Positions 3,220 through 39,653 of a DNA stretch of 41,641 nt are shown here, one piece after another. The notes under the pieces were generated by a model that was not told the origin of the DNA, made no database searches, and worked only from the letters and a program-made list of their open reading frames with translations. Source of the DNA: Cruorifilaria tuberocauda (Eukaryota; Nematoda; Chromadorea; Rhabditida; Onchocercidae); assembly GCA_013365365.1 (NCBI GenBank), contig JABVXU010000470.1, positions 1 through 41,641 on the forward strand, given 5' to 3'. Made by a program: the position numbers and the translations under genes. Position 1 is the stretch's first letter, and every line of letters begins with the position of its first letter.

Positions 3220-6200
3220 CTACTTTGAATGTGGTACTCCAAGAGAACCACTTACACGAGTTCTTTGTACTCGAACTGTAGAACCTTCGGATGATAAACT
3301 GCTCAGTCTCTGAGAGTTGAAAATATTGAACCAAGCCAAATATGAGTTTAACATCTTTATCGCATCTTTTTCCGCAACACCTATCGACAGTAGATACTAA
3401 AATTTTAAGAAATTTAATTTGCTTACTAGACAAAGAGTAATGTAACTGTTTTTTCATGTTTCTTTCACAAAATCAACTACATTTTTTTTTCATTTTACAT
3501 AAATGCAGACTAAAAAGTATAAAAGAACCATTTTATTGATGATCCCCTCCAGATCAGCAATTACATAAAATGACCGATCAGCAAATAAATGCTTATATTT
3601 CGACAATTTCAAAGTATTGAGCCAGCTGCAATAACATAGAATAAGCTTTTTTGAAGCAAAATGATTTATTTCTTCATCTGAAAATTGGGAAGCACAGAAT
3701 TCAGCAAAATGTTCAAAAATAGAAGGGAAAAATACCGAATTACAACTTACGAATCAATAGGAGTATTTTGTGATAGCGAGCTGAAACTGCTGCTTACCGT
3801 CAACATTTCCTTATCACTTCCTTCATTTTTATTTTTCAGCAAATTTCTTGTTAACTCAAAATTACCGACAATAGCACAAACTATTTTATACAAATGCCTT
3901 CCACGAATCTAAAAACGAATTCAATTTTCATTTTTCATTTTGTTCAATATTAAGTAATAATAGATTCTACCTCTAATGAATAAATTGTGTCATCGTCTTC
4001 CCAATCTTGTTTCGGTGGATCTTTTGTTGAAACGGAAACAACTTCTGCAACTGCTGGATAGTGCTTGGCAGGTGGTCGTTTGTTACCTGTAGACAAGCTT
4101 TTGATTTAAATCAACACCGAAACAGTAGAACTGTGTTTTCTTTGATCATACTACTATATGAATATTACAATTCGAGTTTTTTTTAATGATACACTCTTAT
4201 CAATTGATAAACATTACTGTAAATGCACTATCATTTACTTTCAAAATGCTTGCCAAATCAATGAGATAGTAAAAAAAACCACTCCAGTTTTCATATATAA
4301 AAACTGATGGATGAAATCTTTTTATCATTTGGAGCTGCTCTATTTGAAAATTTCTATAATTGCATTTATTTTCTATTCATCAAATACTTCTCATTATGAA
4401 AGGACTCAGCCGTCTTCTAAACATCTTTTGGACACGGAATATACATTCTATGCATATAGAAAAAGGAAAAATAAAAACTGAAAAAAGTTTCAAATTAAGC
4501 AATGGTTATTTTGCTTACTAGATTCACAAGTTAATTAAAACTCAGATAAATTATACCGAGATTTAACGATTAAAGTTTTACATGCAGCGTCCTTAGAGAG
4601 TATAGTGTCCAGAGCAGCTCCAAATGATAAAAATACCAATTCTTTGGGAGGCATTGTTTATTCACAAATCTTGAAAAGAAAAGCATAACACCGTCTTTAC
4701 TTACTAAATCTTCCCTAACACTTTCTTTTACTCCAAAAAATCAAGCAGAATTAGCTTTACGGAGGTAAAAAGCGCTATAATTCATATATAAGTATTAAAT
4801 TTCAGTATGAGAACATTTGTAATGCTTCGTAAGTCGGCAAGTCGGCAGTTGAAAAAGTACTAGAAAGTACTAGAAAAGAAGAGCTATTAATTAATAAATC
4901 TTGAAAAGATTAAATTAATGAAAACATTTTCGAATTAATGAAAAAAAAATTTTGTTTTAACATTAAGAAATCTGACAATGTAATTTAAGAAAACAGTTAT
5001 TTGCTAAGCATCTAAATTAAAATGAGCAGTATCCACAATAATCGCATCAATTTCTTTCCCAATCAAAGCTTCACAATCGTCGGCGGTCAAAGCTAATATT
5101 TCTCCCCAGTGCAACAACTAAATCAATCATATATGAGAATATTTCTATTTCCCGCTTTTATTTTCTTCTAAATTAAAATTGAAATTTTTTCAAAATATTG
5201 AAAACGAAAGCATACGTGGCAAATTAGTAACATCCATATTTGCATCCCGACTTGGAAGTGAACACACTTTCAGGTACATCTTACTGTCTCCAAGTAAATG
5301 ATCACTATAAATTTTGATGCATTAATATTTAAATTTTATTTTAACATTAAGAAATCTGACAATGTAATTTAAGAAAACAAAACAGTTATTTGCCAAGCAT
5401 CTAAATTAAAAATAAAAATCTACCCATTTTCCAAAGAAAAACACAATTCCACTTGCCGCCGATTAATACCACCAGCACAAGATGAATAGCACCTGAACTG
5501 CAGCATTAAGCATCGATTAGCATGAAGTGCGTCGAAAGGCACAATTGCAAATGAACGGGAACCTTCTTCTCCTTCTACTTTTTCTGTCAGATGTTGCGCT
5601 TTGGAATTATTGGTCACAATAAGGAAGTGCTCTTCGTGATTTCCTGTAAAGAATCATAAAAGTTTCCCGAAATGATAATATACATGAGTAAAACTGCAAT
5701 TGTTTCAAAAAATTTAATTGGTGAAGTTGTACAACTATTATGATCAATTGTCAGTTTGGAACGTTATCCAAGACATAAACTTAAATCCGCGCTTTTATGA
5801 TTTAGTTGAAAGTTCCTAAAGAAAATCACTCACTGTCCCGTGAACGATGATAATCGCACCGACGAACTGGAATATGAGCATAAACGTCATCCGAATAAAC
5901 AGCACAAATCCGGATGAACGATTTTGGGGGAGGAGGAATAGGACATTTCACTGCAAATATGACATTGGTATTCATCTTCGAAAAAAGCGAGCGACCTTTG
6001 AACTAAAAGCAAACATTTCTGAGAGAAAACGGAAGAAAAATTACTCCCGATTTGAGAACCAAACTGCTCATTCCTTTTTTATTTGTAAGTAAATTGAAAA
6101 TGCAAATTCCTGTTAATGAAGGGAAAATTTCTTCATTTTTCGAGTGCTGAAGCTATGAAAGCAAATTAGCCATTTCCTAACAATTTAGTTAAAGAACAGA

Positions 6201-7346
6201 CTATGGTAAACAATAAGATTTGTGGTGAAGTAAGCCTTGCCCTGCAACCAAATATATCCAGCTTACATTTGCAGAACTTCACAGCACTGAACAATCAAAT
6301 AACATTAGTTTCAGAACGATGAAAATATTTCAAATGAAAGATTTCAATAAGTGAGAAAAGTAAAGAAAAAAATTTGAATACATACGATGTAGGAAGTTTG
6401 GCGTCCATCTTCCACAGTCACATCAAATTCCAGTTTAAATTCATCAGCTTCTGGTCTAAATAACGATTGATTTCACTTTGTTACAAGTTTAGAAAATTTA
6501 TACAAAATATTTGCGGTACATGAAAGGGAAAAAGAACAAAAACCTGATAGCAGAAACTGATACTGATTTCAGTGGACCAATATTTATTTCGTTTGATGAA
6601 TCAACGAAGAGATCTTTCTAAATTAAAATCCAATTATATAAAAAGACACGTAAATATATGACGGTAACTGATATAAAGCACACAACTCACCGTAAATAAA
6701 CATAAGACATTACAGATGACAAGATGTAACAACTAAATACATACATTTCGACTATCAAGTTGTGATAATACAATATCGGCGAAATTCTCATTTGTCGTCC
6801 GCTCAAAATCCATTGGCGGTATGTTTAACTAAATGTAACTTTTTATAAGTTAAATTAAACATGTTTTGGAAAAAGAAACTTTGAAGTTAGAACAATTATT
6901 AAGAACTTACTGAACTGTCTTTCCTCACAAGATTCCTAGAAACACAGATCTTTTGGAACCATTTGCTGATTACTTGTTGAAATCCTCTATTATCTTTTAA
7001 TCAAAGATTCAGTGATTTAAATTTCACAGGCTATTTACAAGTAGAAATAAATTTGTAATTTGTAATAAATAGATATACATACCGTCAGTATATCATCATT
7101 CACATCGATGAGGGCATTTTCAGTACTGGCATTATAGGTGATACTAAAATAGTAATCATTGTATACTTTTGAAATAATAGTTCTTGAATAATAATTCTTA
7201 TTTCTTGCAAAACCGAACTTATCCCATATCCCGTGATCAGTTGATTGCTGTAAGCCAATCAAAGACGGAGTTCCAAGGGGCTGTTCCAATGCATCACTGA
7301 CCACTGATAATGATTCGAATGTTGTACGTCGCTCTTCGTTGTCCAT
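3220..7346 (-). CDS. cep-1: p53-family transcription factor (CEP-1/p63/p73-like) with DNA-binding, tetramerisation and SAM domains
   Basis: Twelve exons with consistent phases: 7219-7346, 7083-7143, 6745-6828, 6544-6617, 6386-6455, 5834-6002, 5424-5643, 5216-5304, 3971-4086, 3751-3908, 3529-3625, 3220-3396; about 480 aa. Residues ~115-298 match the p53 DNA-binding domain. VRRCDYH carries the equivalents of human R175, C176 and H179. CYSSCAGGINRR carries C238, C242, G245, R248 and R249. KVCSLPSRD carries C275 and R280, with Lys at the R273 position. Residues ~333-360 (YSLEIRGRHLYKIV) match the tetramerisation domain (human YFTLQIRGRERF). Residues ~390-450 (SWLNTLKLSKYKHLF ... LLSIGVAEKDAIKML) look like a SAM domain, and a Ser/Arg-rich tail follows. 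The family consists of nuclear regulators of DNA-damage and germline apoptosis. The start ATG lies 6 bases after an acceptor-like AG. Least certain: the first intron and the 3' end, where a possible donor at the RTR codons could extend the protein. Confidence 0.92.
4319..4633. repeat. Candidate MITE-like element with 23-bp perfect inverted ends
   Basis: Bases 4319-4341 and 4611-4633 are perfect reverse complements (tttttatcatttggagctgc continuing to tct), separated by 269 bases of AT-rich sequence with no long open frame. It lies in the p53 intron between the DNA-binding and tetramerisation exons. No clear target-site duplication is visible, so this may be a hairpin rather than a transposon relic. 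Confidence 0.45.
4949..5022. repeat. Direct repeat, copy 1 (about 75 bp)
   Basis: This is nearly identical to 5333-5411. The copies differ by a 4-base aaac gap and a few substitutions. On the minus strand, copy 1 contains the TAG that closes the orphan frame at 5004-5117. Confidence 0.85.
5004..5117 (-). other. Orphan coding-like frame inside the p53 gene
   Basis: After an acceptor-like atttag, 37 codons run open to a TAG. They read well as protein (LLHWGEILALTADDCEAL, then GKEIDAIIVD). The frame needs a phase-0 join, but the neighbouring p53 exon ends in phase 1. It therefore does not fit the main transcript, which joins 5216 to 4086 cleanly. It could be an alternative last exon in another frame, a remnant of another gene, or chance. 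No family was recognised. Confidence 0.3.
5333..5411. repeat. Direct repeat, copy 2 (about 79 bp)
   Basis: Second copy of the 4949-5022 sequence. It ends 12 bases from the donor of the p53 exon 5424-5643, so it lies inside the following intron. The pair indicates a local duplication within the p53 gene. Confidence 0.85.
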
Positions 7347-25064: not shown

Positions 25065-26896
<1,832 letters not shown>

Positions 26897-30065: not shown

Positions 30066-30594
30066 CTGAAAGGCTTAATTAATGTCCAAAAACGGAAAAT
30101 AACTTGAAGGAAGCAATACGAAAAAGCAATATCAGGTGGAGCGCCAATATGCCAATTAAATACCAATAAACAAACCAAACATCATGATACCAATCTTTTA
30201 TTTACTTTCATAGAAAGAATATATCACACTGTAAATTGATATGTGAGGGGCAGTACACATTCAGGTAAATTTTTTCATCTGCTGCAATCACCGTATAGGA
30301 AATTTTTAATAGCTTATTCTATTTGTTTGTGTGTATATGTTTGTGTGTATTTGCCTCTTCACAGTCAAACTTTTTTGAAATCCAGCTTTAAATTTATAAA
30401 AATTCTACTGGAATTTTTCAACTTTATGACTAAGAATAAGAATAAATTCGCCTTTTCTTTGATTTTTAAAAAACTTCACTAGAGATCCTGAATAAATGGA
30501 AATCTTTATGCTTCGATGTGTTCACTTTTTTCGAGAGGACTTTTTTAAGACAACTATTATACTATTTTCATCAGTCCACATTCGCAAAATATGT
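30066..30594. other. Spacer downstream of the eight-finger gene
   Basis: No exon was recognised. A plus-strand open frame at 30243-30482 is T-rich with gtgtgtat repeats and unlikely to be coding. Confidence 0.45.
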
Positions 30595-33500
30595 TTAAAA
30601 ATGTTTGGAACAGCAACGTAATTGTGTAAATTGAAGCTACAATAAAAATAGAAAAGAAAACCGGAGGTGAAATTTCTTCCTTGTGTCGGGTTGCTACCAT
30701 CGTGATTACCACTTGAGCTACATCGCAAAAAATGCAACAAAATTATAAAAAATGAAAAGAATGTCAAACCTGCATTCGACTCACTGGTCAAATAACCACC
30801 ATGCTCCTGCAATGTATGGTCTTTAAGAGCACCCCATTCGGCACATTTATGCTGGCATACGGAACAAATATAACCGTGTTCTTCTTTTTGATGCTCTTCC
30901 ATCCACACAAAACGATTACATTTGAAGTCACAAATCCGACATTCGAATTTGATTATACCCGTGTGAATACGTTCGTGTGTTGTTACCTTTAATTTACAGC
31001 TACACATTTGAATAGTTGTACTTGAATCAGTTGAAGAAACAAAGCTGTTACCTCTTTTCGAATTGAGAAATATTAAATTTCAAACCTGATCTATCCCTTT
31101 TTTTCCAAATGAAATTTTGCAGAAAAAAGGAAACTGACCGAACATTCGCTTGTGAACAACTCGTCACAAAAGTGGCAAGGGAAAGTTTTCGTGAAAACAT
31201 GAGCCATTTTCTTGTGCTTCCTGAGTTTTCGTGGTGTAAGAAATTTCAACGCACACATGTTGCATTTGAAACCTGAATTCGCACCACGATGAAACTTTGC
31301 TCGGTGATTGAGCAATCTTTGTTGAGTGCAGAGATTCCTCAGTGGTGTACATTCAAAGCAGATAAATGTCTGAAAGTAAAAGATCTAATCTATTCAGCAG
31401 CTCAGTCCTTCTACTGATTTGAAATTTGGATAAAATAAGCAATAAATTGCCTCTCTACGATCACTTCTTCATCTCTCTTACATTGGAACAATGTCATTTT
31501 CTCTACTTCTCATATATTTCCGCTTATCAAAATCTTTTAGTATGATATCAGTCTTTATGCTTTTTTTGATCAAAAGATTAAAATAAAACAGAAAATTCTC
31601 CGCTAATTTATGAAATCCATAACTTTCTACAAGTTTGTCATTCTCCAGAAGTATAAAATTACCAAGTCGCATTCATGCGCTGACAATTCGTTTTTCGTCT
31701 TCACTGCTTTAAAACAACGTAAACATTGAACAAAATCAACGGTTTCTGGATGCTTCTTCACAAAATGCTTCTTTAAAGAAACCTCATTCCTAAACCGCTT
31801 GTCACAAAAAGGACATTGTGGGGAGACCTGAAAAACGAATTTGCTAATTAATATGAACTTGGCTGCTTTGGACAGTTCTGAAAATCAGTAACAAGACAAT
31901 ACAACTTAAACGATATCTTACTTTTTTCTTATAGGAACGTTTTGGCTGACGTAAGAAACCGTGTCGATCAAAACGAGCTGGAATACCACCACTTAATTCA
32001 CCAGGCAACGGAATTCTGAAAGAATTACGAAAATATAGGAGATACAGAAAACGAGAAAAAATTTAGTGACAAAGAAGAAAAATAAAAAGTCTTTTTAACT
32101 GATTAACTCCGAAGGTATAACTTGAAATAAATATCTTACTTGTCAACTTCAACTTCATAAGATTCAGCATCTATCTCGTGTTCTGGTGGAATATAACCCC
32201 CTGTTGCAAGTTCCTCAATTCGATTTGCTTCAAGTTCAGCCTGCCTGAAGTTTTCAACGGAATTAAAAATTCTCTATAGGTTTCTATTTACATCTTCAGT
32301 TAATCAGATCTAACATAATTTAACCAGATATTCTCAAATTTAAAAACCTTTGTTCAGCAATCTCCTCTTCTTGTTGTATCAAATACGCCAAATATTCGGT
32401 ATAATGCCGATCCCTCAGATGTCGTTCATACAGATTCTTTTCAATAAAACGATTTTTACAAATTTTGCATCGTACCATTTTAGCGCGTACGGCTTTTCGT
32501 ATCTGAAAGGATTACTTCATTCTATGGACTAAGGGAAACCAACATAATCCTTAAATTTTACAAATCTAAATGCAAAATCATCGAACCTCATCTGGGACTG
32601 TAGGATGAGGTGGAGGAGGTGGAAGTTCACTAAGAAGTACACCATCTTGAAGCCGTATTGGAAATGTTGTTGTATCTGATGAAGCTGAAATTACAGACCT
32701 ATTTTGTTAATTCAATAAATTATTTGAAATATTAGTCATAAGTTTTCAACTATCGACTTATTTGAAACTGAAAAAATAGCAGTTAATTGACAAAATTAAT
32801 TCATAAAGAACATTACCATTTGCGCGAACGATTTCTGGATGATATACCCACTTCCTCGGTTGATTTTCTTTCCTATTGGTTTCTACTTTTCGTCCATAGC
32901 GATCAAGCACTACCCTTTCCTTTTTTCCGCTTTCTGCTGATGTATTTATGGAGAATAATTTTGAAATTAGCCAACCAACGCCAGACATATGGGATCGTTT
33001 CTGCAGTAAAAACGTCTGATGGGAAAAAATTAAAAATTTAGACAATAGAAAAATGTTTCTTCAAGTCTATAAAAGGTCACAATTTGTAATTGCGATTATT
33101 TACCATAGTTTGAAAACAGAACTATTACTTTTGACAGATAAATATCCTAAATATTACCCACCATTCTATATCCAATTTCTCCAATAAAAGTAATAATAAA
33201 TAATAAAATAATAAAGTTCTTTATAATAAGTTAAATTTCAGAACGCTGAAATAAAAATAAATGCGTTAATACCTTCCTAAGTTCTCGAGCCTGCTTTTCC
33301 TGCCGTACAGCAATAGCGAGCATATTTCGGAGTTCATCACAATCTGGTCCAAATGAATTGTACGGACGACGTCGCACTTCATTTTCACTTCCTCCAGTGA
33401 GTTGTTCAATTAAAACATTAGCTATAATATCTTCCAAACCTTCATCGTCTACTTCGATTTCGTCTCCCACAACTCTTTCATTTTCTTCGATCTCCTGAAA

Positions 33501-39247: not shown

Positions 39248-39653
39248 ATGCTGCATCTTTTCAACATTTTCCTTTTGGTTGTTTGTGCCACTATTGTGGT
39301 CCAAGTAAGTGCTTTATTAAATTGTTTCCGAAGTTATGCTTTTAATTACTGGCAAATTTTAATTTCAGGCTTGTGCCCCACAACCGGCAGGAGAAGATGA
39401 AGAAGATGGAGGTGATGGAGATGGAGATGGGGGGGAAGAATCACAAGGACCGCAAGGACCACCAGGTCGAGATGGTCGGGAAGGACCTCAAGGAAAACCA
39501 GGACCACCAGGGGAGGTTGGTCTACCAGGAGTACAAGGATTGCCAGGTCCACCAGGACCGCAAGGTGGGCCAGGTCTTAAGGGACCAAGAGGACCAAAAG
39601 GATTGAAAGGTCAGCGAGGAATAAGAGGTACCAGTGGTATGATGGGAGGATAA
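39248..39653 (+). CDS. Short secreted collagen-like protein (113 aa)
   Basis: Exon 1, 39248-39304, encodes a typical signal peptide ([19 protein letters not shown]). Exon 2, 39369-39653, starts ACAPQPAG after a tttcag acceptor in phase 0. An acidic linker of about 20 residues ([16 protein letters not shown]) leads into 22 uninterrupted Gly-X-Y triplets rich in Pro and Lys/Arg ([20 protein letters not shown]...), and the protein ends at GMMGG. It should be exported and may form a short triple helix. It lacks the N-terminal homology boxes and the cysteine-flanked Gly-X-Y blocks of normal nematode cuticle collagens and is much shorter than them (usually about 300 aa). The ATG follows an acceptor-like tttcag by 10 bases. 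AATAAA lies at 39861-39866. Confidence 0.85.

Follow-up and report, generated by a model that had tools for sequence, protein, structure and literature searches.

The p53-family protein of Caenorhabditis elegans, CEP-1, carries an oligomerisation domain and a SAM domain, and according to a review (PMC9091270) it is restricted to the dimer because M340, A347 and L348 have turned into K, R and E. PMC4155161 asks whether this domain is a diverged form of the common p53 domain or has an independent origin; the same paper gives the spacing between the tetramerisation domain and SAM as 90–100 residues for TAp63alpha and p73alpha and as closer for Trichoplax and a choanoflagellate. In Drosophila p53 an extra, N-terminal strand joins the oligomerisation sheet (PMC9091270), and the same 2022 review asks whether the autoinhibition of p63 exists in invertebrate p53s. 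Here we analyze a p53-family gene of the filarial nematode Cruorifilaria tuberocauda on contig JABVXU010000470.1. The window is this whole contig, 41,641 bases of a 71.7-Mb assembly. In the reading that we favor and consider likely, the gene, with 12 predicted exons and the only one of its family found in the assembly, encodes a damage-activated factor that assembles as a dimer of dimers and whose C-terminal tail adds a strand to the oligomerisation sheet.

The gene and its orthologs

The gene occupies the minus strand from 7346 to 3220, exactly from ATG to stop codon, and joining its 12 exons (Table 1) yields a protein of 480 residues. All exons have GT..AG borders and consistent phase, the frame is uninterrupted, and the introns measure 62 to 1129 nucleotides. 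A first-pass annotation of this DNA had proposed twelve exons at these positions, and both the count and the coordinates are correct. A thirteenth candidate exon (6949–6911, 39 nucleotides) fits the phase but is absent from all eight relatives that cover the site (nine aligned), hence twelve is the right number. A short exon in intron 5, considered by eye, was dropped because the orthologs fuse YI straight to the F that opens exon 6. The search of the assembly finds p53 at this locus only.

Orthologs, many of them already bearing the p53 name, are deposited for 14 named nematodes of clade III (Spirurina). They come from Cercopithifilaria, Acanthocheilonema, Brugia, Wuchereria, Litomosoides, Elaeophora, Setaria, Dirofilaria and Onchocerca ochengi, and further from Syphacia, Ascaris, Toxocara, Dracunculus and Anisakis. 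The best matches are those of Acanthocheilonema viteae (84% identity over the alignment), Cercopithifilaria johnstoni (82%) and Brugia malayi (77%). Brugia malayi Bm9825 and the other filarial orthologs represent the same gene, with collinear proteins of 483–488 residues, and nothing essential differs. A Brugia transcript called Cep-1 is reported in PMC4826884 to drop upon exposure to bacterial material or DNA. Judged from its sequence, the gene is real and, as a p53 ortholog, ordinary. Our comparisons use 17 records, the window protein and 16 nematode proteins.

The first-pass description, a p53-type gene hidden in a nematode, is right about the content: the gene belongs to the p53 family and encodes a DNA-binding, a tetramerisation and a SAM domain. 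It is not hidden, since the orthologs are already in databases. That gene finders easily miss it is likewise only partly borne out: 14 named species have the protein deposited, but two gene models look wrong. In the Dirofilaria immitis record (P0008) a methylmalonyl-CoA carboxyltransferase is joined to p53; for O. ochengi, p53 is divided over two records (P0009 and P0011).

One intron of 1129 nucleotides contains inserted foreign DNA, as might be expected if the exons belonged to separate transcripts or to a decayed gene. With the uninterrupted frame, the canonical borders and six full-length filarial relatives that are single proteins 71–84% identical to the window protein, we regard this explanation as extremely improbable.

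Canonical landmarks in a diverged DNA-binding domain

The Pfam P53 model (PF00870) matches the window protein at 158.5 bits (E 2.4e-46; cut-off 27), far better than the CEP-1 DNA-binding model, whose 19.7 bits (E 7e-4) stay under its own cut-off. The landmark residues were examined in an alignment with nine nematode rows, the window protein and eight of the 16 nematode proteins. The zinc ligands C176, H179, C238 and C242 (human numbering) are intact in all nine rows; R175, R248, R249 and R280 are likewise identical throughout, R273 is uniformly Lys, and the window protein retains the G245 equivalent. The alignment thereby confirms every one of the zinc and hot-spot positions that the first-pass annotation had listed, including the Lys at 273, and the P53 match upholds its domain assignment. 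By likeness to the related CEP-1, the protein is likely a transcription factor activated by DNA damage. Its zinc-held loops would place R248, K273 and R280 on DNA. A role in removing damaged germ cells may carry over from CEP-1 and p63.

The same annotation had taken the gene for a near-ancestral p53 retained by this lineage. The kept key residues and the match to the P53 rather than the CEP-1 model agree with this idea, and the remainder of the domain contradicts it. The window domain is 24% identical to mammalian p53 (a mammal-like p53, P0017, serves as the vertebrate reference) and 28% to the annelid domain, whereas the annelid–mammal pair reaches 50%, so that on overall identity the idea fails; the other nematode rows lie at 26–32% to mammalian p53. 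Published identities, obtained by another alignment method and only roughly comparable, are 24% for human and Drosophila and 17% for human and CEP-1 (PMC4323202, Table 1), which makes CEP-1 the more distant. Hot spot R282, which the first-pass annotation does not mention, is Ala in eight of the nine rows, the window protein included, and Cys in one, and the filarial rows have a shorter L1 loop around K120. In the Protein Data Bank (PDB) the closest sequences are vertebrate members of the p53 family and 7pc6, presumably the domain of the annelid Alvinella. As far as sequence comparison goes, the landmark residues are canonical, the remainder of the domain is not, and the lineage is not slow-evolving; near-ancestral retention is very unlikely.

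An oligomerisation domain lacking the charges of CEP-1

The window motif DDDTIYSLEIRGRHLYK resembles the tetramerisation motifs of p73 and p63. The likeness is seen well in Toxocara, where DEDTVYEVQVRGR shares DEDT-Y and VRGR with p73 DEDTYYLQVRGR. The domain is present in 15 of the 17 records, the N-terminal O. ochengi record and P0010 having none. A profile of these 15 clade III rows, compared with one of mammalian p53, p63 and p73, gives a local E of 1.3e-5 and a probability of 81%, and AlphaFold predicts a strand and a helix at this place in the C-terminus of a relative.

The residues that distinguish CEP-1 were located by an ungapped count from the RGR motif. In all 15 records position 340 is I or L, position 347 is N or S and position 348 is F or Y, and none carries a charge at any of the three. 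As the CEP-1-type charges are absent throughout, we class these proteins as p53-family relatives only and not as CEP-1-type dimers. Tetramers are likely on the same ground, and the clade III p53 proteins may thus tetramerise; the strand-helix domain, free of the tetramer-blocking charges, would probably form a dimer of dimers.

Several observations weigh against this reading. Pfam P53_tetramer (PF07710) gives the window protein 14.5 bits, under the cut-off of 20.7, stays under the cut-off wherever it is reported, and is unreported for relatives P0014 and P0016. In global mode the profile comparison falls to E 2.8e-4 and a probability of 18%. R337 is Leu in 15 of 15 records and position 352 is R or K, so the human R337–D352 salt bridge is gone; A347 has become N or S, and with both changes stable tetramers are not assured. 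A second tetramerisation helix is not predicted, in contrast to TAp63alpha and p73alpha, although residues 36–51 of the model have a predicted local distance difference test (pLDDT) value below 50. The tetramerisation motif that the first-pass annotation called recognisable is therefore recognisable in part: SLEIRGR is present and the local profile match supports it, but the Pfam score and the global comparison do not.

The loss of the salt bridge and of the small residue at 347 would suit a constitutive dimer as in CEP-1, with SAM and the oligomerisation domain fused into one structure that does not go on to tetramers. The SAM domain of the window protein begins about 20 residues behind the oligomerisation domain, an arrangement that PMC9091270 describes for CEP-1, and is related to the CEP-1 SAM model. 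Against such a dimer stand the lack of charge at the reported tetramer-blocking positions (0/15) and the resemblance of strand and RGR motif to p73 and p63, even if single-sequence searches score weakly (best E 0.28 in the PDB). A CEP-1-like dimer is possible, though we lean against it. A nematode domain with a predicted strand-RGR-helix motif beside a probable CEP-1-type SAM now makes the origin of the CEP-1 domain approachable.

SAM domain and the C-terminal model

SAM follows the tetramerisation domain in the window protein, in the p63/p73-type order. Pfam SAM_CEP-1_C scores 21.1 bits against a cut-off of 26 and passes in two of the eight relatives scanned (P0012, 36.3 bits; P0015, 32.6 bits); the SAM-like domain of the first-pass annotation is thus supported by relatives, while the window protein itself remains short of the threshold. 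Since CEP-1 too has an oligomerisation domain and SAM, the three-domain layout is nothing special. What the proteins have in common with CEP-1 is the p53-family DNA-binding domain, the closeness of oligomerisation domain and SAM, and, above the cut-off in two relatives, the SAM_CEP-1_C model. With TAp63alpha and p73alpha they have in common the domain order, the SAM fold and, near the C-terminus, a serine run followed by a strand, here a predicted one; their spacing between the two domains is far shorter than the one cited above for these proteins.

The structural argument uses an AlphaFold model of the C-terminus of a relative, built from 12 sequences. Its modest quality counts against the favored reading. 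The best of five models has a mean pLDDT of 69 and a predicted template modelling score of 0.49, the remaining four range in pLDDT from 66 to 48, and a full-length model (pLDDT 29) was left unused. A Foldseek search with the C-terminal model returned 128 matches at E<=10 and none at E<=0.001, with CEP-1 2rp5 at rank 26 (E 0.65); in VIA-align, 2rp5 is not among the 50 matches listed.

A conserved tail beyond SAM

The window protein extends past SAM, in contrast to the solved CEP-1 chain (2rp5, 136 residues), which ends two residues after its SAM match. A tail is present in 14 of the 17 records, the exceptions being Ascaris, whose record ends inside SAM, the N-terminal O. ochengi record and P0010; ten of the 14 tails come from filarial worms and close kin and are not independent. 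In the conservation runs, which used ten of the 17 records, the 20-residue tail core (450–469) reaches 0.83, equal to the DNA-contact core (0.83). Among 461 sliding windows of 20 residues it ranks third at 0.827; the best, at 0.828, lies in the zinc and DNA-contact loop. In two sets that lean on distant species the core ranks fifth, and the top windows there run from the last part of SAM into the tail. The sliding windows rule out the tail as the single most conserved stretch; it ties with the DNA-contact core and does not exceed it.

AlphaFold turns part of the tail core into a strand, TVRVQRTR, which would likely pair with the oligomerisation strand. We prefer a structural role, in which the tail strand, placed alongside that strand, would widen and stabilise the sheet; alternatively, it might restrain it. 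The Drosophila arrangement cited above is comparable, although the additional strand here would be far C-terminal. Three points speak against this view of the tail. The borders of the core were picked by eye; the entire stretch after SAM (450–480) is conserved at 0.66 in the ten sequences and at 0.51 and 0.54 in the two distant sets; and the strand pairing derives from DSSP assignments, not from coordinates.

The bolder reading makes the tail a brake comparable to the inhibitory domain that p63 has in oocytes: its strand would cover the oligomerisation domain, and phosphorylation of the preceding serine run by damage kinases would lift it. In 12 of the 14 tails SAM is followed by R-x-x-S, by further serines six and nine residues after the R, and then by the strand, the order seen in TAp63alpha with its p63 sites and CK1 spacing as described in PMC10542812, PMC7730327 and PMC9091270, and in conservation the tail core equals the DNA-contact core. 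Yet 9% of shuffles of the serine-rich tail hold the same kinase-site pattern, which is not significant; it turns up at one other place, in the Syphacia protein, and the Syphacia and Dracunculus tails break it. The tail strand is arginine-rich, whereas the p63 strand is described as having one hydrophobic face (PMC4876613), and according to a review, conservation of the way p63 is activated seems confined to vertebrates (PMC7730327). The comparison with the p63 domain is one of order and spacing. We hold a brake to be unlikely and prefer the structural role.

A fuller version, in which clade III p53 would be a clamp released by phosphorylation, with the near-invariant tail strand docked on the oligomerisation strand in a closed dimer until CHK2- and CK1-type kinases open this dimer to a tetramer, is distinctly unlikely. 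If true, worms would possess a spring-loaded germline switch like that of p63, and CEP-1 would have lost both the tail and tetramerisation. In the accessible parts of the openly licensed literature we found no description of the tail or of clade III oligomerisation domains. For the question of autoinhibition in invertebrates raised by the 2022 review (PMC9091270), the conserved tail offers a concrete candidate. Further work is best spent on the tail and the uncharged interface.

Table 1. Features of the p53-family gene, in window coordinates
Feature	Position	Strand	Evidence
Exon 1, ATG at 7346, residues 1-43	7219..7346	-	N-terminal alignment to orthologs
Exon 2	7083..7143	-	GT..AG, consistent phase
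Exon 3, contains weak transactivation-like ENFADIVLSQL	6745..6828	-	exon join, conservation run
Exon 4	6544..6617	-	exon join
Exon 5; DNA-binding domain begins at about 6433	6386..6455	-	Pfam, alignment
Exon 6, DNA-binding domain; R175, C176, H179 equivalents	5834..6002	-	alignment
Exon 7, DNA-binding domain; C238, C242, G245, R248, R249 equivalents	5424..5643	-	alignment
Exon 8, end of DNA-binding domain to about 5241; K at 273, R280, D281, A at 282	5216..5304	-	alignment
Exon 9, linker and first part of tetramerisation motif (DDDTIYSLE, 3971-3997)	3971..4086	-	profile comparison
Exon 10, remaining tetramerisation domain (IRGRHLYK..., 3828-3908), linker, start of SAM	3751..3908	-	alignment
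Exon 11, SAM domain	3529..3625	-	Pfam, structure comparison
Exon 12, end of SAM, conserved tail, stop codon	3220..3396	-	exon join
Conserved tail core SQRLSSLSSEGSTVRVQRTR, residues 450-469; predicted strand TVRVQRTR	3256..3315	-	conservation, AlphaFold
Wolbachia guaB fragment, 54 nucleotides, intron 8, non-coding	5022..5075	-	sequence match

N-terminus and regulators

Pfam P53_TAD is unreported in the window protein at E<=1. As a transactivation motif, ENFADIVLSQL was considered for its resemblance to the mammalian TFxDLWxLL and rejected; it has no Pfam match and its conservation is 0.27 in the distant set. The genome has four SWIB/MDM2-type matches at two loci, of which one locus has a DEK_C domain and the other is presumably a SMARCD/BAF60-like gene. 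No MDM2 was found through these matches, which leaves its absence unproven; MDM2 is likewise reported missing in C. elegans (PMC4155161).

Insertions in intron 8 and the surroundings of the gene

Intron 8 holds a 54-nucleotide fragment of Wolbachia guaB (IMP dehydrogenase). The co-assembled Wolbachia contig C145 agrees with it in 52 of the 54 bases, and the symbionts of Dirofilaria immitis and Onchocerca ochengi agree in 47 each. The fragment likely represents a transfer of symbiont DNA to the worm inside the p53 gene. About 76 nucleotides of intron 7 (5331–5411) are copied into intron 8 (4947–5022) with 91% identity and abut the guaB fragment. The insert resembles filler DNA, with a piece of symbiont sequence taken up when a break was repaired, but may be an assembly error. 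Contig C145 (132,537 bases) is of bacterial density and has an intact guaB, and among 20 loci the best match of this guaB, at 92%, is to the Wolbachia of D. immitis; by its sequences, the worm that was sequenced carries Wolbachia.

Intron 8 also contains a perfect 23-nucleotide inverted repeat (4319–4341 and 4611–4633, 269 nucleotides apart) reminiscent of a small transposon; the assembly has no second copy of this stretch. Elsewhere in the window lie exons of a cyclophilin-type isomerase (25386–25754, plus strand), C2H2 zinc fingers (30522–31884, minus strand) and a collagen (39363–39653, plus strand).

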